NCBI GenBank assembly: GCA_029781035.1
Contig: JAKOXK010000051.1
Span: 1 to 50,179 of the forward strand
Reading direction: 5' to 3'
Source of the DNA: Armatimonadota bacterium
GTDB taxonomy: Bacteria > Armatimonadota > Fimbriimonadia > Fimbriimonadales > Fimbriimonadaceae
DNA: 50,179 nucleotides
Shown here: one piece after another, positions 5,322 through 39,142 of the stretch
Position numbering within the stretch: position 1 is the first letter of the stretch
Layout: every line of letters starts with the position of its first letter
Notes under the pieces: generated by a model
What the model was told of the DNA's origin: nothing
Databases searched by the model: none
Seen by the model: only the letters and a program-made list of their open reading frames with translations
Program-made: the position numbers and the translations under genes

Positions 5322-5627
5322 ATGATGCTTAATCATATGACATATCGTCGTCTCGCTGATGCCCTTGTTGCAGCGAGATCCACAACGAAAGTTCGCCAAA
5401 GGCAGGTGCTGATCGACGATGCTCTTCAACGGCTCACTCGTTATTGGAGACGCGTTTCAGTGTTACCGACGACTAGCGAAGACAAGGGAGAGGTTCTATT
5501 CGTTCAGGAAGAAATCGATATGGCTTGTCCTGCTGCACTGATTGCTGAATGCAAGTGCATTCTCAGGCATATCGCCAAGGAAGAGATTAATTCGGCGGGT
5601 GGCAGCACGAACTGGGGAGACAAGTGA
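5322..5627 (+). CDS. Hypothetical protein in tip 4 cassette
   Basis: About 101 residues, helix-rich and soluble, with a Cys-containing C-terminal half (ACPAALIAECKCIL). The ATG at 5322 follows GACAGGA, a fair ribosome binding site; a TTG at 5313 is the alternative and would overlap the previous stop. No family is recognised. It shares gene length and helical character with the preceding gene but no evident sequence identity. Confidence 0.5.
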   Translation: MMLNHMTYRRLADALVAARSTTKVRQRQVLIDDALQRLTRYWRRVSVLPTTSEDKGEVLFVQEEIDMACPAALIAECKCILRHIAKEEINSAGGSTNWGDK

Positions 5628-5630
5628 GGA

Positions 5631-5972
5631 ATGAGCTCTCGGTGGGTGGCTAGCGTGCTGCCTTCTTCAGTATTGTTCGTGATCGCCTCTGCGCTGGCAT
5701 CATTGTTCATAGTTATACGCTTGAGAGTCTGGCGCACAAGACCATGGCTCTTGTGCATGTTTCTGGCGAGCTTTGGTGTCCTAGCCCCCAGCTGCTACTT
5801 CGCGGTGATTGGCGATCTAGCCGCTTTGAAGAATCTACACTCATCGCCGATATTCGTGGTTTTGGCCGTTGGGCTCATGTTCATGGCTTTCCACGAGCAT
5901 ATAGATCAACAGAAAGGCCCTCGAGAGGAAGACCGGGCCGAAAGGCCGGGCGACGTCATTGACGGCTCATAG
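5631..5972 (+). CDS. Small membrane protein, last gene of tip array
   Basis: A 113-residue protein with three hydrophobic segments (about residues 8-27, 36-56 and 70-90) and a highly charged tail (GPREEDRAERPGD). The ATG lies 3 nt after the previous stop, behind GTGAGGA. It resembles the other small membrane genes of this array in size and topology, and is a candidate immunity protein. The following bases to 6176 hold no gene. Confidence 0.5.
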   Translation: MSSRWVASVLPSSVLFVIASALASLFIVIRLRVWRTRPWLLCMFLASFGVLAPSCYFAVIGDLAALKNLHSSPIFVVLAVGLMFMAFHEHIDQQKGPREEDRAERPGDVIDGS

Positions 5973-6176
5973 TCTGTCGGTCGTCAGCGACGCTTACCCA
6001 GGCGGGCCATGGCAGGCTTGCCAACGCTAAGAGAGGGGGCCGTCATCCACGAGGCGTCCTGGCGAGGCGAACCGGTCAGGTCGACGTAGGGATCGCGCAG
6101 CAGATGGCCCTGTGTGTACTGCTCGGTTCGTAGCGACCGTGTCGAGCCTGCAGAACCGAGCGCTTCGGTCCCAGAC

Positions 6177-14100: not shown

Positions 14101-14348
14101 CTTGAACTCACTTGATAGACGTTGGGAGCCGACGACACGGCTTGCTCGACAGGCCGCGTGATCTCGGTCTCCATTTCTTCGGGGGCGACGTTGGGCCACG
14201 ACGTGATCACCGCGACTGTCGGGATCGTGACTTTGGGCAGCAGATCGATGGGAAGTCGGAGCAGGCACATGGCTCCCAGAAGCACCAGCGCGGCAATGCG
14301 CATCGTCACGGCCACCGGTCGGGTGACCGAGAACCGGGCAATGTTCAC
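11109..14348 (-). CDS. RND-family efflux pump, inner-membrane subunit
   Basis: This 1079-residue proton-driven exporter belongs to the AcrB/MdtB/HAE1 superfamily. It starts with the family's MNIARFSVTRPVAVTM helix (GTG start, overlapping the adaptor gene's stop). Porter-domain sequence follows, then TM4 with the paired aspartates of the proton relay (GLIVDDAVVVLENIFRH, about residues 405-421). The second half repeats the plan and ends in TM12 with LLVVPVVYTLFDDLGRRL. It works with the membrane-fusion protein upstream; an outer-membrane channel is needed but is not encoded here. Substrates cannot be read from the sequence. Confidence 0.95.
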   Translation of the reverse strand: MNIARFSVTRPVAVTMRIAALVLLGAMCLLRLPIDLLPKVTIPTVAVITSWPNVAPEEMETEITRPVEQAVSSAPNVYQVSSSTTQGQSVVRVQFNWGTDIGQAAVDVLQLVERARQNFPSDPTLQNPIVFKFDPSTLPIRIYGVSGLSDVVKLRTLLDNEISPMIESADGVAAATVTGGAQRAIIVDVSPDRLRAYGLSINDVSKRLQEENINLPGGIARQGNTELVIRSVGLFDKPDDALQVPLTTVGNQVIRLADVATVRDSHPETRLFTRLNGEPAVGLIVTKQSEANTVTTAQNIDEKLHQVKQQYPNLKFGLAYDQASFIEHSIDDLKLTALIGGTLALAILMLFLRNVRSTLVVGLSIPTSIISTFALLFFGGFTLNTISLSGLALATGLIVDDAVVVLENIFRHIERDKRKPAEAAVTGTTEIMSAVVASTLTIVIVFLPLLLIKGQSGQTFTQFALVVIFSISVSLLDATTVVPMLASRLIKEEEVLIEAHPELRAERGLRANLLDKVFDWFGARFHALDESYRRGLKWAIGHRWTVLVFAGGVTVASFGLFPFIGSEMLPQTDSGDFTVRVKLPVGTALAVTDQKMRQIERILLAQPDVQTVFSASGTNLTLRGSTTAAIANNGSATVRLKSNRKHKTQDVIADVQKKVGAISGIRALVTPYDLVTNILTGGNTNMEVDLFGPNLKDLASSSRTVLETLRNVPGLDGVDIGLQDVAPEVQWHIDRAKAAQLGISFTDVANVLNAATNGQLSSYYQENGFQFPIEVQVPQEQRKTVEKLLDLPIQTSLKPTDGGPTPTVRLGDIATATIATGPNEITRIDRQRYVSITGRVVGRSESEVQADVAKAMNKMSLPNGMRWDFGTNQKRRDDEFSGMGAAVLLAVALIYMLLASQFESFIMPLVVLTSVPLCSIGVLLALFLTGRAFGLTAFIGLLMLVGIVVKNGILLVDYTDQLRKRGVPRDEAILTAGPTRLRPILMTTCAAVFGMIPLALALGRGSETQAPLATAVIGGLTTSTLLTLLVVPVVYTLFDDLGRRLRKDHRDLSTASMVEPSVASVGPTTGGGIEPGGGQ

Positions 14349-15922
14349 TTCTTGGCCCCTGGAGCCGAAACCTTGGCCTTCTGACCGTCTTTCAAAGGCG
14401 AATAGGTCAGCGTGACGACCTTGTCCCCAGCTTGGACGCCTTCCAGAACCTCATATCCTTCGGCGTCCTCCAGCCCAGTGGTCACCGGCCTTTGAGACAA
14501 CGTCCCGTCGTCTTTGAGCACGAAGACGGTCCCGTTCTTGACCGCCTCTCGCGGGACGACGACGTTAGCCGCCACACGAGCTGTTACCGCATGGACTTTG
14601 GCGAACATGCCGGGCCGGAACCGTCTGTCGGGGTTTTCGAGACGGATCAGAAACTTGAACTGCCGGCTCTGGGGGTCTGCTGCTGGGTCGATCTTTTCAA
14701 CAGGGGCCTTGAACGTCTGGCCGGGAAACGCGTCGAAGGTGAGCGTCACTTCCTGGCCGACCCTGATAAAGGGGGCCTTGTCCACTGGCGCGCTGACGAC
14801 CACATAGATCCACTTCAGGAACTGGACGGTCAGGACGGCCTGTCCTGGGGAGGCAAAGTCGCCCGGGTCGGCGGCACGGTCGGTCACGACACCCTCGATC
14901 GTGGAACGAAGAGCTAGGTCTGACCTTCGGCTTTGGATCTCGCGTAGTTGGGCGTCGGCGTTGCTGACGCTCGCCTTCAAGGCAGAGACGTTCTCCCGGT
15001 AGGCAGCGCTGTTGGCCTGGTTGGCTCTGGCTGCGTCCACTCCTGCACGGCTCTGGTCCACCAGAGCTTCGGCGGCGACCAGATCGGCTTGCAGCTTCTT
15101 CTTGTTGACACTTGCCGTCTGCTTGGCCGCATCCAACTGAGCCTGAGCAGACACGACCCCTGACTGAGCCGAGTTCACGCCTTCTTGGGCGGCTTGCACC
15201 ACGTTCTCTTGGACAGTGACGGCGGTCTGGGCGTCTTGCGCGTCCTGGAGCGCGGCATACCCTTCTTCGTAAAGTTTCTGCTGACGTGCGGCTTTGGCCT
15301 TGGCGTTAACGAGGCTCGCCTTGGCTGAGTTTAGCGCGGTCTTGGCGCCTTCCGCCTGGGCGTTGGCTGACCTGAGCCGGGCCTCGGCATCGACCACGGT
15401 GTTCTGGTCGGCTTGCAGCTTGGCAGCCAACGTCTGTTTTGACTGCTCGTACTGGGCTTCGCTGCTGGAGGCGGAGGCGACCTGCTGCCGAATGGACGTC
15501 TCGATTCCCGTGTCGTTGCTCGCTTGAGTGGCCGTCGCTTGCGCGAGCTTGAACCTCGCTTCATTCAGGTTCGCCTGAAGCTGCAGAACTTGCGCGTCCA
15601 GTTGGGTCGGATCCAGTTGGGCGAGGATCTGGCCGGGTACTACGGGATCGCCTTCGCGAACCGATATCGTGAGGATCTTGCCCGCCTCTTTCGGCGACAG
15701 TTTGAGCACAAAGGGTGACTCGATGGTGCCGACGAGGTCGAGCCCCTGGGCGATCGCGCGCGGGCCAGCGGTGACCACCGTGACGGACGCCGGCGCCGAC
15801 TTGCGGGCATCTTGCTGCTTCTGCAGTTGTGCCGCCTCACTGGACTTCGTCTGGAAGCGCCAGGCGACGAGCGAAAAAAGGACGAAAAGCCCGACCGACA
15901 CACTGATCCACGTCTTACTCAT
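14345..15922 (-). CDS. RND membrane-fusion (adaptor) protein, long coiled coil
   Basis: This periplasmic adaptor links the RND pump to an outer-membrane channel. Residues 1-25 form an N-terminal membrane anchor (ISVSVGLFVLFSLVAW). The lipoyl half-motifs flank an unusually long Ala/Gln-rich coiled-coil hairpin (about residues 100-340), and the beta-barrel and membrane-proximal domains follow (EKIDPAADPQSRQFKFLIRL; RFRPGMFAKV). At 525 residues it is longer than the usual 380-420, the extra length being in the hairpin. It is the first gene of the adaptor-pump-MarR operon, divergent from the HD-GYP gene. Confidence 0.92.
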   Translation of the reverse strand: MSKTWISVSVGLFVLFSLVAWRFQTKSSEAAQLQKQQDARKSAPASVTVVTAGPRAIAQGLDLVGTIESPFVLKLSPKEAGKILTISVREGDPVVPGQILAQLDPTQLDAQVLQLQANLNEARFKLAQATATQASNDTGIETSIRQQVASASSSEAQYEQSKQTLAAKLQADQNTVVDAEARLRSANAQAEGAKTALNSAKASLVNAKAKAARQQKLYEEGYAALQDAQDAQTAVTVQENVVQAAQEGVNSAQSGVVSAQAQLDAAKQTASVNKKKLQADLVAAEALVDQSRAGVDAARANQANSAAYRENVSALKASVSNADAQLREIQSRRSDLALRSTIEGVVTDRAADPGDFASPGQAVLTVQFLKWIYVVVSAPVDKAPFIRVGQEVTLTFDAFPGQTFKAPVEKIDPAADPQSRQFKFLIRLENPDRRFRPGMFAKVHAVTARVAANVVVPREAVKNGTVFVLKDDGTLSQRPVTTGLEDAEGYEVLEGVQAGDKVVTLTYSPLKDGQKAKVSAPGAKK

Positions 15923-15939
15923 TGGCCACCGAGAATTAG

Positions 15940-15953
15940 TTTAGCTCACTAAA
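15940..15953. promoter_or_regulatory. Palindrome, candidate MarR operator
   Basis: TTTAGCTCACTAAA is an inverted repeat of 5 bp with a 4-bp spacer, 18 bp upstream of the adaptor start codon, within the 244-bp divergent promoter region. Its AT-rich half-sites and position fit autoregulation by the MarR protein at the end of the operon. Confidence 0.4.
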
Positions 15954-16166
15954 GTACCTGTCTTTTAGACCGATGGTTCCTCGCTTTAGGGCGCCTTGAT
16001 AGCCGTTCATCGGCTCCTGGCCCGTAGAAACTCGTGAATCTAGCCAGTCCTGTACGTTTTAGGGGCGTGGGACACAGGTCCAATCCCCCGATAACTAGCC
16101 CAGGTGACGACGATTTCTTCGTAGATCAAGCGGTCGAGCAGACCGACTTCTGGGACGGTAGTTGAG

Positions 16167-18095
16167 TTGGGACTGAAGGGACTTCCGATCGGGGCAAAGG
16201 TCTACTGGGGTGTAGTCCTTTTGGCCGGAGTCGCCGCGATGCTGGGCCCGAGGCTGCTCGGCTGGAGCACCGGTGCCCACGTTCCCGAACTGATCGTGAT
16301 GATGGCGCTGGCTGCTATCGCTGGCGGCACCAAGGTCTCCCTAATTCCGCACAAGGGAGACAAGGACGCCGTCTCTATGTCGCTGGGATTCGTGATCACG
16401 TTCCTGGCACTCCTCAAGATCGGACCGGTCGGTGCCTTGGGTGCAGGCGTCGTGAGCTGCCTGACGGGCTGCCTCTATCCGAAACGCCAGCCCTTCTACC
16501 AACTCGCGTTCAACGTTGGCCTCAGTGCGGTCGAGGCCCTCATCGGCGGAGCGGTCTACTGGTCACTCAATGGTCAGAACCTGGAAATCAGTCCTGCGAA
16601 GACGTTCTTGGCTGTGACGGTTTCGACGCTCGCGTTCTTCTTGGTGAACACAGGCGGCGTATCCCTGATGATCAGCCTGTGTACGAACCTGAATCCGTTC
16701 CGGCTTTGGCGCGAGACCTTCCTCTGGACGGCTCCCAGCTACTTGGCGGGAGCATGCGTCAGTGCCCTGGCGATGGTGATCCTAGGTCACAGTTCAGTTT
16801 TCGTCCTATTGTTCGTCGTGCCGATCGTCTTTGTGATCTACCACTCCTATTCGATCTCAGCCAAGAGGACGGAGGAGAAGCTGCACCACGTTGAGGAAAT
16901 GCAGGCGAACCAAGAGCGGCTCGCTGAATTGTATTTGGCGACGATCAAGAGCTTGGCGCTGGCCATCGACGCCAAAGACCAGTACACCCACCAACACATC
17001 TTGCGCGTGCAAAGGTATGCCGTCGCTCTTGCCAAACGAATGGGCCTGACCGGGGCTGAGCTCGAGGCCGTGAACACGGGCGCTTTGCTCCACGACATCG
17101 GAAAGCTGGGAGTCCCGGAGTATGTGCTGCTCAAGCCAGGAAAGCTGACCGACTCAGAGTTCGACAAGATCAAGAAACACCCCGAGATTGGAGCTGCGAT
17201 CCTGGATCCGGTCGAGTTTCCCTGGCCCGTGCTTCCCGTTGTCAAGTACCACCACGAGAAGTGGGACGGTACCGGATACCCCGAAGGTCTTAAGGGAGAG
17301 GAAATCCCGTTGACGGCTCGGATCATGGCGGTTGCCGACGTGTACGATGCCCTGACTTCGTCTCGGTCCTACCGGCGGGCATGGTCCCATGAAAGGGCCC
17401 TGGGCGTGATCGTCAAGGATGCAGGAACCCACTTTGATCCAGCCTGTGTCGAGGCGTTTGTCGACGTGATCGAGGACGTGATCCACGAAATGGCTGCCGA
17501 AGGGTGTGGACCGTTGGCCGACCTGGATGCAGAGATGCCGAAACCAGGGTGCAAGACCACGCAGGCGGCCCTTGAGATCTCACGGTCTGCGGCAGAGTTC
17601 TGGGCGATGTACGAAGTGGCGAACACCCTGGCTGCCTTTGGAACGCTCGATGAGGCGGCCGTTGCCTTGGCTGAGAAGCTGAGCGAGGCTTTCCCCGAGT
17701 CGCTATGCCTTCTCATGGTGTTGGATCCGTATGACGGACTGCTGAGGCTGGGTGCGGTCAAGGGCCTTGGCTCTCCAGACTTTGACCCCCAAAGGCCTGT
17801 CGCCAAGAGTTCCTTCGCATACGAGGCACTGGAGACACGGAAGACGTATCTCGGACGGTGCAGCCCGATCGAGATAGCTGCTTCTGGACTCGATTTTGAG
17901 GGGGCGCGTATTCTGTGTTCGGCGCTGGTCGCTCCCGTCATCGGCGAGAACGAGGCGCTGGGTGTCATCTGCCTCTATCACCCAGAAGACGGCTTCTTCA
18001 GTGGCCGCGACCGAGACATTCTAGAAACGGTGGCGGAGCAGACAGCCCGCAGCCTTGGGTCAAGACCGTCTGACAGTGGTCTCAAAGCCGCGTAA
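16167..18095 (+). CDS. Membrane HD-GYP/GAF protein, c-di-GMP phosphodiesterase
   Basis: A 642-residue signalling protein. Residues 1-225 hold about six to seven membrane segments forming an N-terminal sensor. A short coiled coil (about 228-250) follows, then the HD-GYP domain (about 255-440), and a GAF-like domain (about 460-635). The metal-binding HD pair is His309-Asp310 in LLHDIGKLG; the GYP loop is seen in HHEKWDGTGYP and the conserved ADVYDALTSSRSYR follows, so hydrolysis of cyclic di-GMP is expected. The start is a TTG with a weak ribosome site; no better start lies nearby. It is divergent from the efflux operon, from which it may share regulatory DNA. Confidence 0.88.
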   Translation: MGLKGLPIGAKVYWGVVLLAGVAAMLGPRLLGWSTGAHVPELIVMMALAAIAGGTKVSLIPHKGDKDAVSMSLGFVITFLALLKIGPVGALGAGVVSCLTGCLYPKRQPFYQLAFNVGLSAVEALIGGAVYWSLNGQNLEISPAKTFLAVTVSTLAFFLVNTGGVSLMISLCTNLNPFRLWRETFLWTAPSYLAGACVSALAMVILGHSSVFVLLFVVPIVFVIYHSYSISAKRTEEKLHHVEEMQANQERLAELYLATIKSLALAIDAKDQYTHQHILRVQRYAVALAKRMGLTGAELEAVNTGALLHDIGKLGVPEYVLLKPGKLTDSEFDKIKKHPEIGAAILDPVEFPWPVLPVVKYHHEKWDGTGYPEGLKGEEIPLTARIMAVADVYDALTSSRSYRRAWSHERALGVIVKDAGTHFDPACVEAFVDVIEDVIHEMAAEGCGPLADLDAEMPKPGCKTTQAALEISRSAAEFWAMYEVANTLAAFGTLDEAAVALAEKLSEAFPESLCLLMVLDPYDGLLRLGAVKGLGSPDFDPQRPVAKSSFAYEALETRKTYLGRCSPIEIAASGLDFEGARILCSALVAPVIGENEALGVICLYHPEDGFFSGRDRDILETVAEQTARSLGSRPSDSGLKAA

Positions 18096-18339
18096 TCGGA
18101 CGCCTTGAGCGCAAACCGGCAAGATTCGTGTGCCTTTTGGGCCCTGAAGACGGCATACACCAACCAGGCCCCCCGTGTGACCAGTTCACGCGTCGGGCTT
18201 TGTGCATTGGACTGGGAATCGAACCCCTTGATACTGATACGGGACGCCCTGACCGGTGCGACCCGGACATCGGCCACAACGATGGGCCGCTTCCGACATC
18301 TGCTGTCGGAGCCGACGGAACCACTTCGAGAAGGATCAG

Positions 18340-20073
18340 ATGAACAAAGCAATCCAGAAAGTGCGGACGGGCGTCAGCCCTGGCGCACGCATTAATTCGT
18401 TGAGAACGCTTGCCCTTAGCTTGGTTTTGGGAGCGCTGGCCTGCAGTGCCCTCGGGAACTCGACCGGATCGTGGGCTCAGAAACTTGACTCGTTCGCTCA
18501 GGCGAGGGCCACCGGCCAGCACCTGAAGGACGTCTCGACACTCATCGTCCGATTCAGGGGCACTCTCACCCCGGTCGAATCGACGAAGCTGCGGCGGTTG
18601 GGAGCCAAAGTTGAAAAGCACCTTCGAATCGTCGACTCATATGTCCTGAAGGTTCGCAACAAGAACATCAAGAAACTCGCGAACCTGCCTTTCGTCGAGC
18701 ATGTCTCGACGGACGTCACGGTGACGAAGAAGGACGAGTTCACGTTCGAGCACAGTTTGGCCAACGTCGCCTTTGGCGAGCAATCGTTGACGGGTGAAGG
18801 CGTGACTATCGCCGTGCTGGACAGCGGCATCAACTCTTGTCCCGACCTTTTGGATCCGGCTACGGGACAGTCAAGGGTCATCGCCAGCGTTGACTTTGCC
18901 CCGAATTCAAGCAGCGCGCTGGACGCGTTCGGGCACGGGACCCACGTTGCGGGCATCATTGCTGGCAACGGTGCGTCGTCGTCCGGCGTCGGGTTCTTCC
19001 GGACGTTCTACGGGGTCGCCCGCAAGGCGAAACTCGTCAACGTCCACGTTCTGAACGCCGCCGGTTCGTCGAGCGTGAGTCAGTTTGTCGCTGCGCTCGA
19101 GTGGGTCTTGGCGAACAAAGACAATTACAACATCAAGGTTGTGAACCTGTCCGTCGGTCATCCGGTTGGCGAGAGCTACCGGACCGATCCTCTGTGTCAG
19201 GCAGTCGAAACTTTGTGGAAGTCCGGTGTCGTCGTCGTGTGCGCGGCAGGCAACGATGGCCGGGCGAATCCCATGGCGATGACGTCTGGTGGAGACAACG
19301 AGGGCTATGGGACGAACTACGGCTCGATCACGGTTCCAGGCAACGATCCGTACGTGATCACGGTCGGCGCGATGAAGAAGACCGGTGACGGCAGTCGCGA
19401 CTTGGACGCCATTGCCACCTATTCGAGCCGGGGCCCGACCCGTCTTGACCTGCGTCTGAAGCCGGACGTCGTCGCGCCGGGCAACCGCGTCGTCAGCTTA
19501 CGCCGGAGCCTGAGCACGTTGGAGCTTCAGTATCCCTCGATCGTTCTGCCGCTGAACTCCTACTACATGGGCACGAACGGACTCGCTCCATCGTCCTACT
19601 CGACCCTCTCGGGCACGTCGATGGCGACGCCTGTCGTCAGTGGCGCCGTCGCACTGATGCTTCAGGCTGATCCCTCGTTGACTCCCGACACGATCAAGGC
19701 CCGCTTGATGGTCTCGGCGGACAAGTGGCTGGATCAGAGCGGTAACGCAAACCCGTTCACGTTTGGCGCTGGCTATCTCAACGTCAAAGCCGCACTGGCG
19801 TCAACGGTCACGGCGAGCAGTTGGGCGATGAGCCCTTGCGTCATCCAACCGACTTCAGGGACTGTCAACCTTGTTCTGGACAGTTCCGTCTACGGCGATG
19901 GCGGCTTCTGGGGCACGGGCATCACCGACCTGCGCGCGATCTGGGGCAACCGAGCCATTTGGGGCACCGGAACCTTGGCGAGCGACCGCGCCCTTTGGGG
20001 CAACTCGGTCTGGTCTGACCGGGCGATGTGGGGCACCGACACCTTTAGCATCGGAATCGGCCCTGGCGATTAG
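18340..20073 (+). CDS. Secreted subtilisin-like protease (S8) with WG repeats
   Basis: 577 residues from the ATG preceded by GAAGGATC. A long signal peptide (hydrophobic stretch LALSLVLGALACSALG) leads into an I9-like propeptide (about residues 60-130). The peptidase domain has the catalytic Asp161 (VLDSGIN), His199 (GHGTHVAG) and Ser427 (GTSMATP), plus the oxyanion-side CAAGNDG segment. The last 55 residues contain five Ala-(Ile/Leu/Met)-Trp-Gly style repeats (AIWGNRAIWG, ALWGNSVW, AMWGTD), a tail found on subtilases of several environmental phyla and of unknown role. All catalytic residues are present. The 244 bp upstream hold no gene I can support. Confidence 0.93.
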   Translation: MNKAIQKVRTGVSPGARINSLRTLALSLVLGALACSALGNSTGSWAQKLDSFAQARATGQHLKDVSTLIVRFRGTLTPVESTKLRRLGAKVEKHLRIVDSYVLKVRNKNIKKLANLPFVEHVSTDVTVTKKDEFTFEHSLANVAFGEQSLTGEGVTIAVLDSGINSCPDLLDPATGQSRVIASVDFAPNSSSALDAFGHGTHVAGIIAGNGASSSGVGFFRTFYGVARKAKLVNVHVLNAAGSSSVSQFVAALEWVLANKDNYNIKVVNLSVGHPVGESYRTDPLCQAVETLWKSGVVVVCAAGNDGRANPMAMTSGGDNEGYGTNYGSITVPGNDPYVITVGAMKKTGDGSRDLDAIATYSSRGPTRLDLRLKPDVVAPGNRVVSLRRSLSTLELQYPSIVLPLNSYYMGTNGLAPSSYSTLSGTSMATPVVSGAVALMLQADPSLTPDTIKARLMVSADKWLDQSGNANPFTFGAGYLNVKAALASTVTASSWAMSPCVIQPTSGTVNLVLDSSVYGDGGFWGTGITDLRAIWGNRAIWGTGTLASDRALWGNSVWSDRAMWGTDTFSIGIGPGD

Positions 20074-20095
20074 TCGCTCGGGACATACGCCCTCT

Positions 20096-20128
20096 GCGAG
20101 CCGCCAGCCCTTGGGCTTGGCGGCTCGC
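20096..20128. terminator. Bidirectional hairpin between convergent genes
   Basis: GCGAGCCGCC (20096-20105) pairs perfectly with GGCGGCTCGC (20119-20128), and the loop continues the stem with AGCCC/GGGCT. It sits between the stops of the protease and lyxose isomerase genes. There is no T run, so it may act as a structural terminator for both. Confidence 0.65.
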
Positions 20129-20131
20129 GCG

Positions 20132-20710
20132 TTAGTCGCTGACAAGCCTGGCCAGGGGGGCTTCGTCTTCTTCGATACTCGAGAACCGGCCGATCCGAGG
20201 GTTTGCGAACACGTTGTCGTTCAGGTCGTCGTTGGCGGTCGAGACCTCACCAATGATGCATTCGACACTGACGGGGGCGAACTCATGCCAGACACCTGGG
20301 ACAAGAGTCACCCGCTCTCCAGCGTGCAGCACGACGCGCGTCCCGTTGGAGACTTCTCGAGGTTGGCCACAGAACCCGAACTTCACCGCGGGCGCGTTTT
20401 CGTCAACCTGCCCCTCAATGGGGCACCGTGAGAACAGCGCGATGGCGAGCTCCCCCCAGCGGCAGATGATATCTTCCTTCTTCTTGTGGTGCGTGTGGGC
20501 CGGCGTCGTCATACCCCGTTTGGCGTACATCAGCTTCTCGCAGTACTCCTCCTCTTCGGCGAGGTTCACTAGAACAAGGCCCCACCTGAAGTGGTTTCCG
20601 AGCCCAAAGTCGGTCACGTCCCATCGAGGGGTCGGTGGCAGTGTCCAGCCGTGGTCTGAAAAGCAGGCGGACGCCGACCGGATCAGGTCATTGATCTCTG
20701 AACGCTTCAT
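20132..20710 (-). CDS. D-lyxose ketol-isomerase
   Basis: A 192-residue cupin enzyme of the bacterial D-lyxose isomerase family, which interconverts D-lyxose and D-xylulose (also mannose and fructose in some members) with a divalent metal. I start at MKRSEIN, the usual N-terminus of the family; an in-frame ATG 90 bp upstream lacks family similarity. The metal-binding cupin motifs are HTHHKKKEDI (about residue 75) and GVWHEF (about residue 139). It lies convergent to the protease gene. Its product D-xylulose would feed the pentose phosphate pathway, where transketolase (28640) acts, but no xylulokinase is here. Confidence 0.85.
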   Translation of the reverse strand: MKRSEINDLIRSASACFSDHGWTLPPTPRWDVTDFGLGNHFRWGLVLVNLAEEEEYCEKLMYAKRGMTTPAHTHHKKKEDIICRWGELAIALFSRCPIEGQVDENAPAVKFGFCGQPREVSNGTRVVLHAGERVTLVPGVWHEFAPVSVECIIGEVSTANDDLNDNVFANPRIGRFSSIEEDEAPLARLVSD

Positions 20711-20758
20711 GGACTCTCTCAAAACCTTAGTCTCGACTTTACCGGAACAAATGCCCCA

Positions 20759-20785
20759 GCCCGAGCCTGCATTCTGGGCTCGGGC
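20759..20785 (-). terminator. Hairpin after PEP-CTERM gene
   Basis: GCCCGAGCC (20759-20767) and GGCTCGGGC (20777-20785) form a perfect 9-bp stem with a 9-nt loop, about 70 bp beyond the stop of the PEP-CTERM gene. The following T run is weak. Confidence 0.55.
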
Positions 20786-20854
20786 GGGACTGGTTCTCAA
20801 CTGCCTGGGGCCGGAGAGGTAACAAGAGCCCTCAGGTCAGGTTTGGAGTCTGTT

Positions 20855-21508
20855 CTATGCCCGTCTGCGCCTCCTTACCAGGAGTCCGGCCAGACCCATG
20901 CCCAGCAGAGCGACTGCCGATGGTTCGGGCACGCAGTGAGTGCCGATCCAAAGGTTGTCGATGTAAGCGCCGGACTGACCACCGGTGAACTGGAATGTGA
21001 ACGTCTCCCAGAGCGGCTGGGGCTTGATCTGGCACGTCACTGTGCCGCGTGTCCAACCATTGCCTATGTCGACGTCCTCTTCTTGGAGATTCACGACTTC
21101 AGACGTGGATTCGGTTGTGATCGCGAGGGTAACGTCGCTCCCCTGTGCTGGAACCTCGTAGAAGTCGACTTGGAGCCAGACCTCTTTGAGCCAATCGGGG
21201 TTCTTGAGGTTCCAGAGCGTCACCGAGAACGATCCGTTCAGGCCCGGGCCGTCACCCCACACACCCGTGTGGTCCGTGACGGTCGGATACCAGAAGACAG
21301 TGCTGCCAGAGCTCCAACTCGGACTGCCGAACGGGTCGAGACTATAGTCGGGGACCGGCGGGTAGGCTGGCCCAGGGAACGACCAGCCAAACCCGGAGGT
21401 AAAGCCGTCGCTTTGTCCCCACCAACTCGGTGGGTTGACCTGGGCCAGTGCATTGCCCGCAACGATCAAAGCCGCGAGGGCGGAAAGAGCCAATCTTGCG
21501 AGTTTCAT
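20855..21508 (-). CDS. PEP-CTERM sorting-domain protein
   Basis: 217 residues: signal peptide (about 1-22, LALSALAALIVAGNALA), a Trp-rich beta-sandwich-like middle, and the C-terminal sorting tail VPEPSAVALLGMGLAGLLVRRRRRA, in which the Pro-Glu-Pro motif, hydrophobic helix and Arg cluster are all clear in that order. Such proteins are cut and placed on the cell surface by an exosortase, often together with exopolysaccharide. No exosortase gene is in this window, but a polysaccharide export protein lies 3 kb away. The middle part (WSLEVWLQVDFYEV-like strands) may bind carbohydrate; this is a guess. Confidence 0.85.
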   Translation of the reverse strand: MKLARLALSALAALIVAGNALAQVNPPSWWGQSDGFTSGFGWSFPGPAYPPVPDYSLDPFGSPSWSSGSTVFWYPTVTDHTGVWGDGPGLNGSFSVTLWNLKNPDWLKEVWLQVDFYEVPAQGSDVTLAITTESTSEVVNLQEEDVDIGNGWTRGTVTCQIKPQPLWETFTFQFTGGQSGAYIDNLWIGTHCVPEPSAVALLGMGLAGLLVRRRRRA

Positions 21509-21740
21509 TTCTTCATCCTCCGTGCCAAGGCGAGGCGTTCGTCTGAGGGAATCGACCGCGCCCTGTCATATCCCATAGTGATAGATGGATCACCATTGTT
21601 TCTTGGGATTAGGATGAGGATAAGATACATCAAATTCACAGTTTAGAATCATACTATTTTTATCAGGATGATCATTTCTATAACTATGAACGATTGATAA
21701 ACAATGATCTCGCCATACCTAACTAGCTAGGAAAGAAAAA

Positions 21741-22285
21741 GCTCAATCTCGGCCAGCGCCTTGGATAGGAGCATAGTCAATGCTATCGTCTGGCCGCGGA
21801 GAGCGAGGAGGATGGAACCTTGGCAAAGTCTTTCCCGCACCTCCTATTTGTGTGTCGCCAGTAAGACAGCCTGGCAGGCTTGCGACACGGCCGGCCGGGG
21901 AGGGCCGGAAGCGCAAGAAAGCCCTGACGTAGTCAGAGCATGAAGACCTTGCCTGTTGCCCACAAGATTCTTGGCGCCATTGGCGGTCAGGCGCTTGGGC
22001 CATGGTGGCCCGCCTTGGGTGGCATCCGTGTGCCAATGCCACAAGGTGTAAGAACCGGGCATGCGTGGTCGAGACCACTCAGCGGTCAGGGCCGGTGTCA
22101 GCCCGGTCGGGCCAGTCGCTATGCGTGACGACGCCGGAGGCGCCGCACTTCTACGAATCGTCTCCAGTATCGTCGCTTCAAGAAAGCGCTTGCGTCACTG
22201 CTGGTGACAAGTTCAAGCGCGGGCAAATGCCGCTACGAACCCGTGTCGGTTCGTCACAAGCGAACCGTATCGTCGTAGCGTAAGT
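21741..22285 (+). ncRNA. Candidate large structured non-coding RNA
   Basis: This 545-bp GC-rich block between AT-rich flanks carries no convincing gene but many helices. Stems seen: 21750-56/21790-96 (7 bp); 21770-74/21780-84; 21807-11/21840-44; 21852-58/21882-88 (7 bp) around 21868-72/21876-80; 21891-96/21903-08; 21973-78/21990-95; 21997-22001/22007-11; 22013-16+22019-25/22036-42+22043-46; 22065-70/22073-78; 22090-95/22103-08; 22186-92/22214-20 around 22195-98/22204-07; and 22231-38/22273-80 around 22248-53/22261-66. Two stems use G-U pairs only on the + strand, favouring that strand. A possible promoter is TTGATA plus TACCTA near 21695-21720. I could not match it to RNase P, tmRNA, SRP, group I or group II. 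The AT-rich bases 21509-21740 hold no gene. Confidence 0.5.
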
Positions 22286-22383
22286 TCAGTCTATCTAGTT
22301 TCCCTTCACAAGAACTTGTACGATAGTTGAATGATTACGAAAAGAAAACATTCAAAGGCGACCACGAAACATCGCGAAAGTCG

Positions 22384-23502
22384 TCACGTAACGTTTTCAA
22401 CTTGTTGCGTTTCGTGCGACTTCATGGCGGCTGCCCAAAGGGCGTGGCTCAAAAGGGCTTCGGTTGGAGTGGCGCAGCCAAACCTGTCCTCTAAGACTCC
22501 AGTGCGTTCCACGAGGAAGGATGCGAACATCTGAAGCAAAGCGTCGGGGAATCCGAACTCGAAGATGCCACCGGTGGCGACAGGGAAGACGGAGGCGTGC
22601 CCCAGGTCCGTCTGGACCCAGCCAACTTCTGGTGCGGTTTGGTACGTCCAAAGCGTCTTGGGCTGTTTGGTCGAGAACTTGACACCTCCCCTGGTGCCGA
22701 TCACTTCGAGGCTCCAAGAGTTGATCTGGCCTGGGGCCAGGCGCTTCGTCTCAAGGCGCATCGGCACGCCGTTCGGCAGGGTTGCGGTGAGCGTCGCATT
22801 GTCCCAAGTATCACAGTCGGCCATCCCTCCCTTGCCATCGGGACGCGTCTTGACCACGTTTTGAAGCTGTGCATAGACTCGCTCAGGCAGGAGTCCGGCA
22901 CGGAAGGGGAGGTGGACGACATGGAGCCCCAGGTCGTTCATGACCCCCGCCTCACCACAAGTGCGCACCTGTCGTTTCCAGTTGATGGGTTTTGCCAAGT
23001 CGAGGTCCGAACTGTGAAGGAAGGAGGCGTTGACCTCGAGCAGCTCGCCCAAGTGACCGTTCTGCAGAGTTTGGTAGACGCGCAGCGCCCCAGGGAAGAA
23101 AGGGAACTCTGAGCTGCAGCGGACAAAGCGTCCCGACTTCTCGCACGCTGCGACGATCCTCTGCGCCGATGTCAAGTCGATGCCGAACGGCTTCTCCGCC
23201 AAAAGGTCTTTTCCGGCTGCAAGTACGTCGCAATAGACCTGATCATGGAGGTCATGCGGCACAGCAGCATAGATCACATCGACGTCGGTCGCCAGCAATT
23301 GGTGGTAGTCGTCCACAAGGTGCTCTACGGACGGTATCCGATGGAACCAACCCAGGGCTTTGGGGTTGGGGTCGGCCACGCCGACAAGGACGGGCAACGG
23401 GGCTACACCGTCCAAGACGAACCAGCGGCCGATGGCGCTGGCCAGTTCGCGACCCATGAGGCCGCCTCCAATGATTCCGACCCTGACGACTTGTGTGCTC
23501 AT
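22384..23502 (-). CDS. Gfo/Idh/MocA-family oxidoreductase
   Basis: A 372-residue NAD(P)-dependent sugar dehydrogenase-type enzyme. The Rossmann fold opens with RVGIIGGGLMGRELASAIGRW (glycine-rich loop about residues 11-16); the family motif is AEKPFGIDL (about residue 125, with the conserved Lys). The C-terminal half is the alpha/beta substrate domain. Substrate cannot be deduced. Its stop side faces the structured RNA block; its start overlaps by four bases the stop of the aldolase gene, so the two act in one pathway, probably sugar or polyol catabolism. Confidence 0.9.
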   Translation of the reverse strand: MSTQVVRVGIIGGGLMGRELASAIGRWFVLDGVAPLPVLVGVADPNPKALGWFHRIPSVEHLVDDYHQLLATDVDVIYAAVPHDLHDQVYCDVLAAGKDLLAEKPFGIDLTSAQRIVAACEKSGRFVRCSSEFPFFPGALRVYQTLQNGHLGELLEVNASFLHSSDLDLAKPINWKRQVRTCGEAGVMNDLGLHVVHLPFRAGLLPERVYAQLQNVVKTRPDGKGGMADCDTWDNATLTATLPNGVPMRLETKRLAPGQINSWSLEVIGTRGGVKFSTKQPKTLWTYQTAPEVGWVQTDLGHASVFPVATGGIFEFGFPDALLQMFASFLVERTGVLEDRFGCATPTEALLSHALWAAAMKSHETQQVENVT

Positions 23503-24326
23503 CGAAGGAACGAGGCGGCGGTCGTGGCAGAGGCGGAATCGTGGACGATCGCCATAAGCGCTTTCGTCATGCCGGACGGGTTTTCGTGCTGGACGATATT
23601 CCTCCCGTAGACGATGCCGGAGACGCCTTGCTTCATCAGATCCTCTGTGCGTCGGAGCACCTCTGCATCATCAGCTTTGCCACCCCCTCGGACCAGAACA
23701 GGGACTCGGGCAGCTTCGACGACACGACCATAGTCGGTAACGACGTCAGTAGGATCGGCTTTGATGACGTCTGCGCCCAGTTCGGTGGCTTGGCGCACGA
23801 GGGGCACGATCTTGTCCGGGTCTCCGTCCACCATGTAGCCGCCCGCCTCCCGGTTGGGTCGAAAGACCAGGGGCTCAACCATCAGCGGCATCTCCCAGCG
23901 GTCGCACTCTGGCTTGACACTGAGGATGTTCTGGATGCACTGGTCGGTGACCTCGGGTTCGTCCGGGATCTGGAAGAGGTTGACGACGATGCAGACGGCA
24001 TCGAGTCTTAGTGCCTGCCCGACGGGGTCGGCGATCATACGTGAGAACAACGACCGTGGCAGGGACTTGCCGTAGACGTTGGCCACGTCAGTCCGAAGCA
24101 CCAGCGACGGTTTCTCTTTGCCGGGAATCGACTGAAGGACGTCGGCTTGTCCTGCCGTGAGTTGGATCGCGTCCGGTGCGGCTTTGACGAGCACCTCGAC
24201 AGCCTTCGCCAGATCCTCAATGCCCTTGAGGAAGCTCCCTTCGTTAAAGAAACCATGGTCGACGGCTACGTCCAGACACCTGCCAGAACGGGCCGAGAAG
24301 AGGCGGTTGAGTCGGTACCGCTTCAT
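23499..24326 (-). CDS. Class I aldolase, DeoC/LacD/DhnA type
   Basis: A 275-residue TIM barrel of the class I fructose-bisphosphate/LsrF aldolase group. Landmarks are CLDVAVDHGFF near residue 20, ADVIKADPTDV (about 190, likely Schiff-base Lys), VPVLVRGGG (about 213) and GIVYGRNIVQHENP (about 245), the phosphate-binding end. It would cleave or form a carbon-carbon bond in a phosphorylated sugar. It is the first gene of the pair with the Gfo/Idh oxidoreductase (ATGA overlap), an arrangement suggesting breakdown of an unusual sugar acid or polyol. Confidence 0.8.
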   Translation of the reverse strand: MKRYRLNRLFSARSGRCLDVAVDHGFFNEGSFLKGIEDLAKAVEVLVKAAPDAIQLTAGQADVLQSIPGKEKPSLVLRTDVANVYGKSLPRSLFSRMIADPVGQALRLDAVCIVVNLFQIPDEPEVTDQCIQNILSVKPECDRWEMPLMVEPLVFRPNREAGGYMVDGDPDKIVPLVRQATELGADVIKADPTDVVTDYGRVVEAARVPVLVRGGGKADDAEVLRRTEDLMKQGVSGIVYGRNIVQHENPSGMTKALMAIVHDSASATTAASFLR

Positions 24327-24401
24327 GAGTCCAAACGATACCTGGCACGGGGGCTAGGTGCGTTCCGGGTCTGTGAACCGTCTGACTTATCAGTAACGAC
24401 C

Positions 24402-25571
24402 ATGCGCAAGTTGTTCTGCCTTATCCCGCTCCTCCTGTTCGTCGCGTGTCTCGGAATCGCCCAAGATGCGACGAGGAAGATCGCGCCGCTCGACAAGCTC
24501 AAAGTCACCTGTGCCGAAGAGAGTTTGATCACCAAGACCTACAAAGTGAGTAAAGACGGCATGATCTTAGTGGACTTTTTGGGAGCCGTCGACGTCCAAG
24601 GTCTCACTGAGAAAGAGGCGGCCGACAAGTTGAGCCAGAAGCTCGTCGCCGACCGGATCCTTCGAAACGCCACCGTGACCGTTGCAGTCGTCGGTGGAAG
24701 CTCAGACACCGGGACGACGAAGCCGGTGGAACAAGGAACGACTGATCCGACGAAGACGACGCAACCAACGGAGACGAAACCCCTTGTCGTTCACGTCACA
24801 GGCGCATTGGGCCACGCGGGCGACACGGAATTCAAGGACGGCCTCAAGCTTAGTGACGTATTGAAGGGGGCTAGTCCGACAAGCGACGCCGATCTGGCCA
24901 AGGTGAAGGTCACGTCCGCGGATGGCACTGTGACGGAAGTCGATGCGCGAGACCCGGCAGGCGATGTGACACTCAAGGCGGGGGACACTGTTTCTGTCCC
25001 AGAGCTCGTGAAGCCTCAGCCCTTCGAAGTCACGGTCTTGGGAGGGGTCAAGAAACCCGGTGCCGTGACGTTGCTGGGGCAAGGAACCGTGGCTCAGGCC
25101 ATTGAGCAAGCCGGCGGGTTCACTCCGTTGGCGGCCAAGAAGCGCGTTCGAGTGGAGCGGGATGGACAGGAGTTGCAGACACTCGACTTTTCGGCGCCGG
25201 GCACGGATCTGGTCCTGCGAGCCAACGACCGGGTGATGGTCGATGTGGTGGAGCAACGGTCCTTTGTGGAAGTTCAGGGCGCGGTGCGAAACCCCGGCTT
25301 TTTCGTCGTCGAGGACGGCATGAAGCTGAGTCAGTTGATCGCTGCTGCGGGCGGAATCCTGCCGAAGGGACGTGCCGACAGAGTCCAAGTCACCTCGGGA
25401 ACGGAGAAGCCGCGAGAGGTCAACTTCATGGACATCGAACAGGGATTCATGGGGGACGTGCCTATCAGGCCTGGGGACAAAGTCGTGGTTCCAGGCCCCA
25501 AGGGCCCCAATGTGGCGCCGTTCCGAGTTGCGGGCGGGTTCGCCGCCTTCATGCTGCTCTTCAACAGATGA
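24402..25571 (+). CDS. SLBB-domain polysaccharide export protein
   Basis: 389 residues from the ATG of MRKLFCLIPLLLFVACLGIAQ, a signal peptide. The Poly_export domain (about 25-95) has KYKVSxDG-like and LxGAVDVxGLTxxEA signatures. After a Thr/Lys/Pro linker (about 100-130) come three SLBB-type segments: about 132-205, 213-280 (VTVLGGVKKPGAVTL) and 288-360 (FVEVQGAVRNPGFF). A short hydrophobic C-terminus follows. Family members form the outer-membrane or periplasmic part of capsule and exopolysaccharide exporters, although an all-SLBB protein without an adjacent Wzc or glycosyltransferase is atypical. The last bases overlap the next gene (ATGA). Confidence 0.85.
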   Translation: MRKLFCLIPLLLFVACLGIAQDATRKIAPLDKLKVTCAEESLITKTYKVSKDGMILVDFLGAVDVQGLTEKEAADKLSQKLVADRILRNATVTVAVVGGSSDTGTTKPVEQGTTDPTKTTQPTETKPLVVHVTGALGHAGDTEFKDGLKLSDVLKGASPTSDADLAKVKVTSADGTVTEVDARDPAGDVTLKAGDTVSVPELVKPQPFEVTVLGGVKKPGAVTLLGQGTVAQAIEQAGGFTPLAAKKRVRVERDGQELQTLDFSAPGTDLVLRANDRVMVDVVEQRSFVEVQGAVRNPGFFVVEDGMKLSQLIAAAGGILPKGRADRVQVTSGTEKPREVNFMDIEQGFMGDVPIRPGDKVVVPGPKGPNVAPFRVAGGFAAFMLLFNR

Positions 25572-26296
25572 AATGGGATCGGAGCCAGGGACGCCCGGAG
25601 CCGATCCGGGCTCTCAACCGCGTCAAAGAGTCTGACAACGGCGAGCCTCTGGTGGACATGAAGCTCGCTTGTCCGTCGGTCAAAGCTTTACGCCCAGGCA
25701 CACTCACGTGGTGCCGCGAGTCTGTAGCGGAGATGGCTGAGGCAGCGGCTCGGTCGTTGCCAAGCGGCATCTTCCTCGCTTATAGCGAAGCCTGGCGGCC
25801 TTGGAAGCGGCAGAAGATGATCTATGACCAGATGTTCGAGATGCTCGAGGAAGCGCGTCCCGGGCTCTCCTATGCCGCGAAGCGCAGGATCGTGTGCCGG
25901 TGGGTGGCGCCTGTCGACCAGAAAGCACCACCCGGGCACTGTACGGGCGCTGCCCTCGATGTCTATCTGATCGACAAGGACGGCGAGCAACTCGACATGG
26001 TCTCACCGTACGAGCGCTTCAACGCGGCGCCCACACATGTTTTGGGCCTGACCGAAACCGCAAGGTCTAACCGAATGCTCATGTACGAGACGATGCTGGC
26101 CGTCGGGTTCTCTAACTGTCGCGACGAGTTTTGGCACTATAGTTTTGGCGACGCCGGCTGGGCGGTCAGAACCGGTCACGACAGCTGCCAGTACGGACTC
26201 GTGACACTTGATGAAGCCCTTTGGCACGAGGCCCAGGTGGCCTGGGAAGAAGCGTTCGCTACCCGCCCAAACCCTTTTCTGGCTTCACGCCCTTAG
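25568..26296 (+). CDS. D-Ala-D-Ala dipeptidase-like protein (M15D, VanX type)
   Basis: A 242-residue zinc peptidase of the VanX/DdpX family, which splits D-alanyl-D-alanine. The zinc ligands are His124 and Asp131 in PPGHCTGAALDVYL (the SxHxxGxAxD motif with Pro-Gly before His) and His190 in EFWHY, with Glu187 as catalytic base. The conserved AYSEAWRPWKRQ arginine segment (about 71-81) is also present. No signal peptide is visible, so it is cytoplasmic. It is translationally coupled to the SLBB gene and converges on the next gene with a 38-bp overlap. A role in peptidoglycan recycling is likelier than vancomycin resistance, since no VanH or VanA is near. Confidence 0.85.
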   Translation: MKWDRSQGRPEPIRALNRVKESDNGEPLVDMKLACPSVKALRPGTLTWCRESVAEMAEAAARSLPSGIFLAYSEAWRPWKRQKMIYDQMFEMLEEARPGLSYAAKRRIVCRWVAPVDQKAPPGHCTGAALDVYLIDKDGEQLDMVSPYERFNAAPTHVLGLTETARSNRMLMYETMLAVGFSNCRDEFWHYSFGDAGWAVRTGHDSCQYGLVTLDEALWHEAQVAWEEAFATRPNPFLASRP

Positions 26297-28604
26297 GGGG
26301 CGAGACCGTTCGGAGCCACTCGATCGGCAGCCGGGGTCCATCGGGACGGAATCCAGGCTGAGCCAAGTTCACTACGTCCAGTCCGATGTCGAGTCCGCGG
26401 CTGGACGGACACTCGAACCGTACGTTGTTCGTACCCCGTTCGAGGTCGACGTCACCAAACTTGTACCAACCGAAGCCGTTTCCGTAATAGCTGACCGGTT
26501 TGGCCGGCGGTCCAAGCGGCTTGTCGTTCACAACGACTCTGCACGAGTCCCTGACCTCGGAAGGGATACTTGCCGCGAACCAGACTTCATACTGGCCAGC
26601 GTGGCGAACCGTCAGCGGATACTCGGCATAGAGCACACCTTCGGACGGCGCCAGTCTCGTGCCGGCCAAGAGGACGGTTTCGCTGGAAGAACCGGGGACT
26701 GGAAGAGCCTCGCCAAAGTTGTTCTTGGGTGAGCGGCTGGCAGCGATCCACACGTAGGGCGCCGCCTTCGGCATCAGACGGGTGAACTGGGCCCGAAGCG
26801 CCATAAAGCTCGCACCCGGAGAACGGTCGAACGACTTCACGGACTCAGCAAAGGTGTACTGCTCGCTCCCGCTGACGTTGACTTGGTTGGGGAAGGCGTC
26901 AAAGAGGAGCGTCAGAGCGGTCACGGTCTCCGACATCGAGACGGTGGGCACGGGGACATCACTGGCGCCCTGGATAAGCACGGCTTGAGTCGACAACTCA
27001 AGGTCGATCTCGTTCTTTTTGCGCCGAAATGGAATCGCTTGTCCATCGACGGAGGTCACTGTGACCGTCTTGGTGTCGGTGAACTTGAGGGTCACCTTCT
27101 TCTCCCCGTCGGTCGACCACATGGCGTATACGGGGCTCGGGCCAGAATCGTCTTTATAGCCTTCAATGCCAGCACCGAACACGATTCTCTGTCCGCCAAT
27201 CGGGCTCGGCAGCCACCAGAGTCCGCCAACGAGGCGCATCGGCTGGGCGGGATCTCGGGCTGACTCTGGATAGAAGAGCCCTTGGATCTTCCACTGCGAC
27301 GATGATGGATCGGCTTCACGGGCGGCTTCGAGTCGAGCGATGGTTTGAAGTTGGCCCGGATCCGACGTCCGGAAGTACCACCCGCGGACACCCATACCTT
27401 CGAGTTCGACGACTGCGTCTTCCACGGAAACACCGTTGGCGACCGGAGCGAGCCCTGTAGCCATGAGTACGCTGGGGTTGCTGAGCCGTAGTTGCGTCGA
27501 AACCGCCGGTGCGGCACCATCGAGCATGTTGGGCACGGAGTCAAGCGGCACTTGCATGGATGTGCCTGAGAACGGGATCTCTGGCGAGACGTAGGGCCCG
27601 TTCCAGCCTCTGAAAGTGGCGAGGATGGGGCCACCGGACTTTTCCTTCAGGTTCTCGATCAGGTGCATGGTCCTTCTGAGCGCGACGGCACGAAGGGTCG
27701 ATCGCGTATCAGTCCAAGCCAGCGAAGACTTGCGGTCGACGGTGTAAAGGTGGTCTGTCACCGTGTCCCACAGACTGGCGACACCGCGCGTCTCGCTCCA
27801 GAGCGGGACGAGGCGGGCCAGCTGGTCGAACGTGGTGATGTCGTTGGCCGACAGCCCCCATGCTCGGAGCGCTGTCGGCAGCTTGGTGTACTTCTTTTCC
27901 AGGTAGCTGGCCAGCTCCGTCTGGAAGAGCGGAGACGTCGGAACAGCGTCGCAGTCAGCGTCTGGGAATGCAAGGTCGGCACCAAGTGGTCCGATCAAGC
28001 CTCGGTAGCCAGGCCCAGGTGGGTTCTTGCTAAACGCTGCCAATAAGCGGTCCCGGTGAGCGTCGAGACCGTCGAAAAAGTCGGGAGCTTCCAGGCTCCG
28101 CACGATTGGGTAGATCAGCAAGACGTGAGGCAGTTCAATCTCCGGATCGATCTCCTCTTTGAGTCGCTCGTTGACGATCGGGACTCGTTTGGACCATCGG
28201 ATCGTTCCGTCGCGCTCAGCCGCCAGGACCAACAAGGCCTCGGTGGCGCCTGGAATCCCAACGTCCACGATCGTCTTGCGCTCGATGTCGGTCATCCGGT
28301 AGCCGGCCGGATCCACGATCACGGCTTCTCGGACGGGCGAGGCGGTGGACAGGGTCACCATATAGCGCATGCCGTTGTCGTCGCAAGCCTTGAAAGCTCT
28401 GTCCCATCCCGTTCCGTCGGCAGGCAGGTCAAGGAGAACGTCCCGGATTCCAGCCTTTTTGGCCTGGCCTACCGCATCGGCGTTTCCCTGGATCTCGAGG
28501 CCGACAGGCATAAAGGGTTGACCGTTCCAAACGAGGGTCCGGTTGGCGTTGACCTGCCACTCTGTGCGTGCCATCGCCAGGAGGCAGAGGAGGGCCGACG
28601 TCAT
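26259..28604 (-). CDS. Large secreted protein, TIM-barrel-like, unknown
   Basis: 781 residues with a short signal-like start (MTSALLCLLAMA). The N-terminal half (about 20-390) reads like a glycoside-hydrolase-type barrel: RTLVWNGQPFMPVGLEIQG at the first strand, then AGIRDVLLDLPADGTGWDRAF, then GLIGPLGADLAFPDAD. I cannot assign catalytic acids. A beta-rich region (about 430-560) and a C-terminal carbohydrate-binding-like sandwich (about 660-745, YEVWFAASIPSEVRDSCRVVV) follow. It is divergent from transketolase with only 35 bp between starts, so the promoters must overlap the coding regions. Enzyme function is not established. Confidence 0.6.
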   Translation of the reverse strand: MTSALLCLLAMARTEWQVNANRTLVWNGQPFMPVGLEIQGNADAVGQAKKAGIRDVLLDLPADGTGWDRAFKACDDNGMRYMVTLSTASPVREAVIVDPAGYRMTDIERKTIVDVGIPGATEALLVLAAERDGTIRWSKRVPIVNERLKEEIDPEIELPHVLLIYPIVRSLEAPDFFDGLDAHRDRLLAAFSKNPPGPGYRGLIGPLGADLAFPDADCDAVPTSPLFQTELASYLEKKYTKLPTALRAWGLSANDITTFDQLARLVPLWSETRGVASLWDTVTDHLYTVDRKSSLAWTDTRSTLRAVALRRTMHLIENLKEKSGGPILATFRGWNGPYVSPEIPFSGTSMQVPLDSVPNMLDGAAPAVSTQLRLSNPSVLMATGLAPVANGVSVEDAVVELEGMGVRGWYFRTSDPGQLQTIARLEAAREADPSSSQWKIQGLFYPESARDPAQPMRLVGGLWWLPSPIGGQRIVFGAGIEGYKDDSGPSPVYAMWSTDGEKKVTLKFTDTKTVTVTSVDGQAIPFRRKKNEIDLELSTQAVLIQGASDVPVPTVSMSETVTALTLLFDAFPNQVNVSGSEQYTFAESVKSFDRSPGASFMALRAQFTRLMPKAAPYVWIAASRSPKNNFGEALPVPGSSSETVLLAGTRLAPSEGVLYAEYPLTVRHAGQYEVWFAASIPSEVRDSCRVVVNDKPLGPPAKPVSYYGNGFGWYKFGDVDLERGTNNVRFECPSSRGLDIGLDVVNLAQPGFRPDGPRLPIEWLRTVSPPKGVKPEKGLGG

Positions 28605-36059: not shown

Positions 36060-36335
36060 TGGTCTGTTCCCCGGATCTGAAGACACGAAGAGAGTAGTCC
36101 GCTCCGTCCCTTGAAGGGGGCGGGGAGGACGAAGAATGAAGAAGAGCAAGTACACCGAGTAACAGATCGTCAAGATCCTCTAGGAGACGTCGAGGGCCGC
36201 AAGACGCACACAGAGTTGTTTGAGGAGCACGGGCTGAGCCAGTGTAACTTTTACGTCCGGAAGTGTCAGTACTCCTGGATCTGGAGAGGCACGACATGTA
36301 GTGCAGAATCGAGATCGAGGTGTTGGGCTAACCTG
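36060..36335 (+). mobile_element. Decayed IS3-family remnant (5' end with orfA)
   Basis: The terminal repeat TGGTCTG plus CCCCGGATCTGAAGACACG starts at 36060 and matches the inner-right end of the intact element (39077 reading left). An orfA follows from the ATG at 36136 (MKKSKYTE), interrupted by TAA and TAG stops and then diverging or deleted. It lies between two tip cassettes, so an old insertion separates them. Confidence 0.75.
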
Positions 36336-39026: not shown

Positions 39027-39087
39027 GGGACGGAGCGGACTACTCTTTTCGTGTCTTCAGATCCGGGGGGCAGACCAGGGGCAGGTC

Positions 39088-39142
39088 ACTATCCTGCAGG
39101 CAGGACTCCTCTTAGGATGTCTTCAACAATGGGGGCAGACCA
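39088..39142 (+). mobile_element. 3' end of a second copy of the same IS, inverted
   Basis: CTATCCTGCAGGCAGGACTC and what follows is the reverse of 37895-37949 with three mismatches: the last nine codons of orfB, its stop and the terminal repeat ending GGGGGCAGACCA. It lies head to tail with the intact element's right end, 10 bp away. Confidence 0.85.

Follow-up and report, generated by a model that had tools for sequence, protein, structure and literature searches.

Few large structured RNAs are known from bacteria. Every bacterial genome is expected to encode RNase P RNA and tmRNA, each structured and several hundred nucleotides long, and OLE, an ornate, large, extremophilic RNA, measures about 600 nt. 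OLE is found mostly in extremophiles and anaerobes of the Bacillota (PMC12054373), and GOLLD and ROOL RNAs are encoded in phages or prophages, often near tRNA islands (PMC12286853). Particles made of RNA alone, and larger than ribosomes, are formed by some large structured bacterial RNAs (PMC12286853), and the search signature of the GC-IGR and DIMPL pipelines is a long, relatively GC-rich intergenic region (PMC6429828, PMC8723152). Here we describe a block of 545 bp (21741-22285) that separates two genes in the DNA of an uncultured member of the Armatimonadota and was analysed within its window, the whole stretch of 50,179 nucleotides. The block shows no coding signal, and its minus-strand fold is strong and well defined, with a 3' edge that resembles a terminator; no relative of it could be detected in related genomes. 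The best explanation, to which we give about an even chance, is that it may be the template of a structured noncoding RNA of approximately 550 nt transcribed from the minus strand. The first-pass annotation of this DNA had proposed a large structured RNA candidate lacking a coding gene, and that proposal survived every test run, with the strand changed from plus to minus.

Genomic setting and coding content

Both genes flanking the block lie on the minus strand, as does the candidate RNA. Upstream is a Gfo/Idh/MocA oxidoreductase gene (22384..23502, minus; Pfam PF01408 and PF22725), with an aldolase gene behind it (23499-24326, minus), and downstream are a gene for a PEP-CTERM protein of 217 aa (20855..21508, minus; Pfam PF07589) and a D-lyxose isomerase-like cupin gene (20132-20800, minus). 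AT-rich spacers of 40% GC separate the block from its neighbours: one, a possible promoter region, extends from the oxidoreductase stop codon to the candidate 5' end (22286..22383), and the other from the candidate 3' end to the PEP-CTERM gene (21509..21740). The earlier description of a GC-rich block between AT-rich flanks is correct with respect to these flanks (61% against 40% GC, with a minimum of 29% in 100-nt windows) and fails with respect to nearby coding DNA, whose GC content is about the same as that of the block.

Searches with the oxidoreductase recovered relatives that include Fimbriimonadaceae MAGs. Synteny analysis revealed that in the congener G003 (MAG SZAS-3) the oxidoreductase gene runs directly into the cupin gene with a 4-base overlap and the PEP-CTERM gene is absent from this place; in G001 genes reading as Ku and LigD come after the same oxidoreductase. 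Since the oxidoreductase and cupin genes are adjacent in the congener, the block and the PEP-CTERM gene constitute a lineage-specific insertion. The interval from an efflux membrane-fusion gene to the oxidoreductase (window positions 14345-22384, compared with loci L031 of G001 and L032 of G003) is a variable site, which contains Ku/LigD-like genes in G001, the cupin gene only in G003, and an HD-domain gene, a subtilase, the cupin gene, the PEP-CTERM gene and the block here. Elsewhere in the window, positions 36060-36274 and 38863-39305 harbour long repeats, both inverted and direct (71 nt at 93%, 54 nt at 91% and 84 nt at 79% identity), in which a transposase-like frame begins (MKKSKYTE / MKKSKFTEEQ); we take this frame to be IS3-like, and some copies have internal stops; these repeats are decayed insertion sequences lying face to face.

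Scored over its whole length with codon frequencies from neighbouring genes, the block was negative in all six frames, and the same scoring placed the best score of both flanking genes in their own frame. GC content by codon position is flat in the block (0.62/0.62/0.59), the corresponding values of the two neighbouring genes being 0.72/0.52/0.58 and 0.72/0.44/0.64. No credible Pfam family was found for block frame segments in any of the six frames; a match to PF25358, a fungal RdRP-associated domain, was dismissed (E 7e-4 to 1e-3, 19-20 bits, below the 27-bit cutoff). Two frame segments of 116 residues gave nothing coherent against 85 relatives, and six-frame protein searches in these genomes yielded weak, mostly stop-broken matches. 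On the codon scores, Pfam results and protein searches a protein-coding block was rejected, in agreement with the earlier statement that no coding gene is present.

Predicted fold of the minus strand and its 3' edge

The block folds better than chance, and exceptionally so on the minus strand. The minus strand has a minimum free energy (MFE) of -240.3 kcal/mol, its shuffles averaging -204 (z -5.46, with 0 of 100 shuffles as low), and further shuffle runs gave z values of -5.66 and -4.95; for the plus strand, the MFE was -236.4 kcal/mol against a shuffle mean of -220 (z -2.17; -1.8 and -2.3 in further runs). Five boundary variants ranged from -4.9 to -6.2 on the minus strand and from -1.7 to -3.2 on the plus strand. 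Control windows (n=47) had a mean MFE z of -0.4 (sd 1.1, lowest -3.7), the lowest value among additional control windows (n=30) was -2.7, and thirty folds of further gaps in this window, noncoding or only weakly coding, gave +1.3 to -3.3. The minus-strand ensemble is also sharply defined, with a mean probability of MFE pairs of 0.892 and an entropy of 0.42 bits/nt, and that of the plus strand is ordinary (0.74 and 0.93 bits/nt). The first control folds (n=26) reached mean pair probabilities of 0.29-0.85 (best 0.846) at 0.65-1.76 bits/nt, and among about 90 control folds in total the pair probability exceeded that of the minus-strand block in only one and the entropy was lower in none. The sole control above the block, 5600-6144 on the plus strand, is a gap without a strong gene call and combines a pair probability of 0.91 and 0.445 bits/nt with an unremarkable fold energy (z only -1.5). 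On the minus strand, the fold is more stable and better defined than those of shuffles and genomic controls, as is looked for in structured bacterial noncoding RNAs in general.

When G-U pairs were forbidden, excess complementarity persisted on both strands (z -4.1 minus, -3.0 plus). The energy gained from G-U pairs exceeded expectation on the minus strand (z -1.5) and fell below it on the plus strand (z +1.4); better than shuffles on one and worse on the other, this gain points to the minus strand as the RNA strand. The first-pass annotation had chosen the plus strand, noting G-U pairs of two helices, and this strand was not confirmed as that of the RNA, the plus-strand z values of -1.8 to -2.3 contrasting with -5.0 to -5.7 on the minus strand, and the G-U gain running the other way. 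These energies call for caution, since in the same genus RNase P RNA and tmRNA scored only +0.4 to -2.8, with pair probabilities of 0.35-0.73, so that the MFE z is neither necessary nor sufficient for function and is an unreliable guide; z values alone are no proof of function. Some selection bias is also inherent, the helices of the block having been the reason why the earlier reader picked it. From folding exceptionally well to being a functional RNA is a step that we infer.

The candidate RNA, including a 3' U-tract, spans about 554 nt (21732..22285, minus), with z values of -5.0 to -5.7, pair probabilities of 0.89-0.90, 0.41-0.42 bits/nt and no codon signal. Its MFE structure comprises 36 helix segments and 188 pairs, bearing out the many helices first noted in the 545 bp, and is predicted to form three domains and a 3' terminal hairpin. 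Domain 1 (22231..22280, minus) is a 50-nt 5' hairpin with an 8-bp stem (CGCUACGA/UCGUAGCG) and an inner 7-bp stem (CGGUUCG/CGAACCG), predicted with pair probabilities of 0.97 and 0.99. It corresponds to the "terminal 8-bp + 6-bp stem" of the earlier description, which does exist near 22231-22280 and on the minus strand becomes a 5' hairpin of 8 bp plus an inner 7 bp. Domain 2 (21956..22226, minus; span 271 nt) is a large multibranch of five arms closed by UUGCCCGC/GUGGGCAA (22226-22219/21963-21956), with predicted probabilities of 0.92 for the closing helix and mostly 0.7-1.0 for the arm helices. Domain 3 (21822..21953, minus; 132 nt) consists of an 11-bp stem GGCAAGGUCUU/AAGACUUUGCC (21953-21943/21832-21822), a side hairpin (21921-21939) and a 12-bp stem UCUUGCGCUUCC/GGAGGUGCGGGA (21918-21907/21844-21833), with probabilities of 0.92-1.00. 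The 3' terminal hairpin (21741..21804, minus; 64 nt, -24.2 kcal/mol) has a CGGCCAG/CUGGCCG core (21796-21790/21756-21750; probability 0.97) and a GCUC/GAGC foot (0.72). A 17-nt sequence (CAAGAAAGC..) is repeated within the block at 82% identity, 265 nt apart (21914-21930 and 22179-22195), both copies containing GCUUUCUUG on the minus strand.

Directly after the foot of the terminal hairpin lies a terminator-like, U-rich tract, TTTTTCTTT (21732..21740, minus), so that on the minus strand UUUUUCUUU stands immediately 3' of GCUC/GAGC and hairpin and U-tract together coincide exactly with the 3' edge of the block. A scan of both strands for stable hairpins with their foot at a T-rich tail, designed after the site at 21732-21804 had already been noticed, returned six sites in the window, that of the block being the only one on the minus strand and the most stable. 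A stricter consensus terminator scan does not list it because that scan requires a loop of 3-8 nt. No consensus sigma-70 promoter was found on either strand by a consensus scan, and no U-tract follows 22285, the plus-strand end.

In the model that we favour, transcription would start within the AT-rich spacer after the oxidoreductase gene or read through across it, and would stop at the U-tract (21740-21732). The RNA, whether transcribed on its own or processed from the 3' end of an aldolase-oxidoreductase mRNA, would fold into the 5' hairpin, the five-arm multibranch domain, the long two-stem domain and the 3' hairpin. It would then act as a structural RNA, as a scaffold or an RNA-only particle, and not by coding or antisense pairing. 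Transcription, formation of this fold in the cell and the structural role are all inferred.

Relatives and rival explanations

The covariance scan proposed in the first-pass annotation was run with all Rfam families: none matched the block at the gathering threshold, and up to E 10 there were only three weak chance matches. A minus-strand match to the c-di-GMP-II-GAG riboswitch was dismissed (19 bits against a gathering threshold of 40). The genome's RNase P RNA and tmRNA are encoded elsewhere with strong scores (G000:C83 and G000:C62), and an identity of the block with either was rejected, as was that with a tRNA array, there being no tRNA here. The homologue collection by nucleotide search, likewise proposed, returned none in 291 genomes of the phylum, phages, plasmids or E. 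coli. With blastn, only the block itself was recovered in 85 family and 113 class genomes; across the 291 phylum genomes there were, besides the block, two 30-nt matches at 90% identity in two places of one distant genome (G216), dismissed as lying inside protein genes (codons PKRLTAGGAN / PKRVTANGGN) and as no more than chance would give across 291 genomes. Likewise no better than chance was a 39-nt match to a G003 locus rich in tRNAs (L004/L045; E 0.01 per genome, with 85 genomes searched). Nothing was found by blastn in the loci recovered with the neighbouring oxidoreductase, phage records and E. coli gave no match, plasmids gave two chance fragments only, and five viral pattern scans gave chance matches or nothing, none of which could be extended. 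Two single-sequence covariance models (domain 3 and the 3' half of domain 2) recovered only the block in the 85 family genomes, weak matches in G101, G028 and G018 (20-21 bits) being dismissed as overlapping long open frames. With no homologue in the sets searched, and hence no covariation, the block is a single-sequence candidate. Contig C5 of the congener G003 (loci L045, L046 and L047) carries dense tRNA arrays of 20, 19 and 5 genes (ARAGORN), largely grouped by amino acid, together with a second, divergent tmRNA (L046:15123-15480, 102.8 bits) besides the genome's usual one; these features suggest that a large mobile element or a phage-like region lies there.

The main rival explanation, a real possibility that we nevertheless lean against, is that the block is a functionless insertion or what decay has left of an old gene or of mobile DNA. 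With the average GC of the genome and an AT-rich spacer on either side, such a piece would fold well by accident or because it derives from DNA rich in inverted repeats. Its place within a lineage-specific insertion, the want of a homologue anywhere searched, the other decayed mobile DNA in the window and the Watson-Crick excess on both strands without G-U pairs (plus z -3.0, minus -4.1) all agree with such an origin. However, the window's other gaps with weak or no coding content fold differently (z +1.3 to -3.3), the excess is greater on one strand and backed there by G-U pairs, the terminator-like site falls exactly at the block edge, and a trace of a parent gene appears in no frame. A sub-case of the favoured noncoding RNA, which we consider unlikely, is that the block would be the 3' UTR of the aldolase-oxidoreductase operon, terminating the mRNA and shielding it from 3' exonucleases with no independent RNA. 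The shared strand, the position 98 nt past the stop codon, the terminator-like end and the lack of a consensus promoter fit this, but an ordered structure of 550 nt far exceeds the needs of termination or protection, and no such element follows the oxidoreductase gene in G003 or G001.

Far less probable is the plus-strand structured RNA originally proposed: its MFE of -236 kcal/mol comes close to that of the minus strand as an absolute value, yet its z of only -1.8 to -2.3, ordinary ensemble, below-expectation G-U gain and missing U-tract after 22285 argue against it. We regard as least credible that the block was once a self-splicing intron, now degenerate, or that it belongs to the single-stranded-DNA elements (retron, attC-like or transfer-origin remnant), although its size, its palindromes and its location in an insertion are compatible with this. 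No intron or other Rfam family appeared at E up to 10 beyond the three weak chance matches, and the neighbouring genes annotated from 18343 to 28604 include neither a reverse transcriptase nor an integrase; the suggestion of a degenerate intron made at first reading found no support among group I and group II families within the same E limit.

Comparison with known large RNAs

The likeness to OLE, GOLLD or ROOL suggested initially is one of size and helix density only, as no Rfam model comes near and a tRNA-island or prophage setting is lacking. OLE and the block are alike in size class, in having a single elaborate fold and in intergenic position, but the OLE covariance model gave no match at the gathering threshold or E up to 10, and OLE is mostly a Bacillota RNA whereas the block occurs in one Armatimonadota genome. 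GOLLD and ROOL share with the block that they are large, helix-dense, noncoding and of unknown function; their covariance models did not match it at the gathering threshold or E up to 10, and their usual setting is absent, with no tRNA in the window, no match to phage records and annotated neighbours that are not phage genes. The signature searched by GC-IGR and DIMPL, a long and relatively GC-rich intergenic region, is shared by the block, though the candidates of those pipelines rest on homologues and comparative analysis and no homologue of the block was found. At present, it is a well-defined target, with strand, ends and fold specified, and not an established RNA. More speculatively, and on balance doubtfully, the block could be the founding example of a novel class of large ornate RNAs in Armatimonadota, being three-domain, intrinsically terminated, about 550 nt long and unrelated to OLE, GOLLD or ROOL, and having arrived with the PEP-CTERM gene. 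Homologues that appear and covary would make it a new family of large ornate RNA, and the set of large structured RNAs would then be widened, alongside OLE, GOLLD and ROOL, in a phylum with little RNA work.
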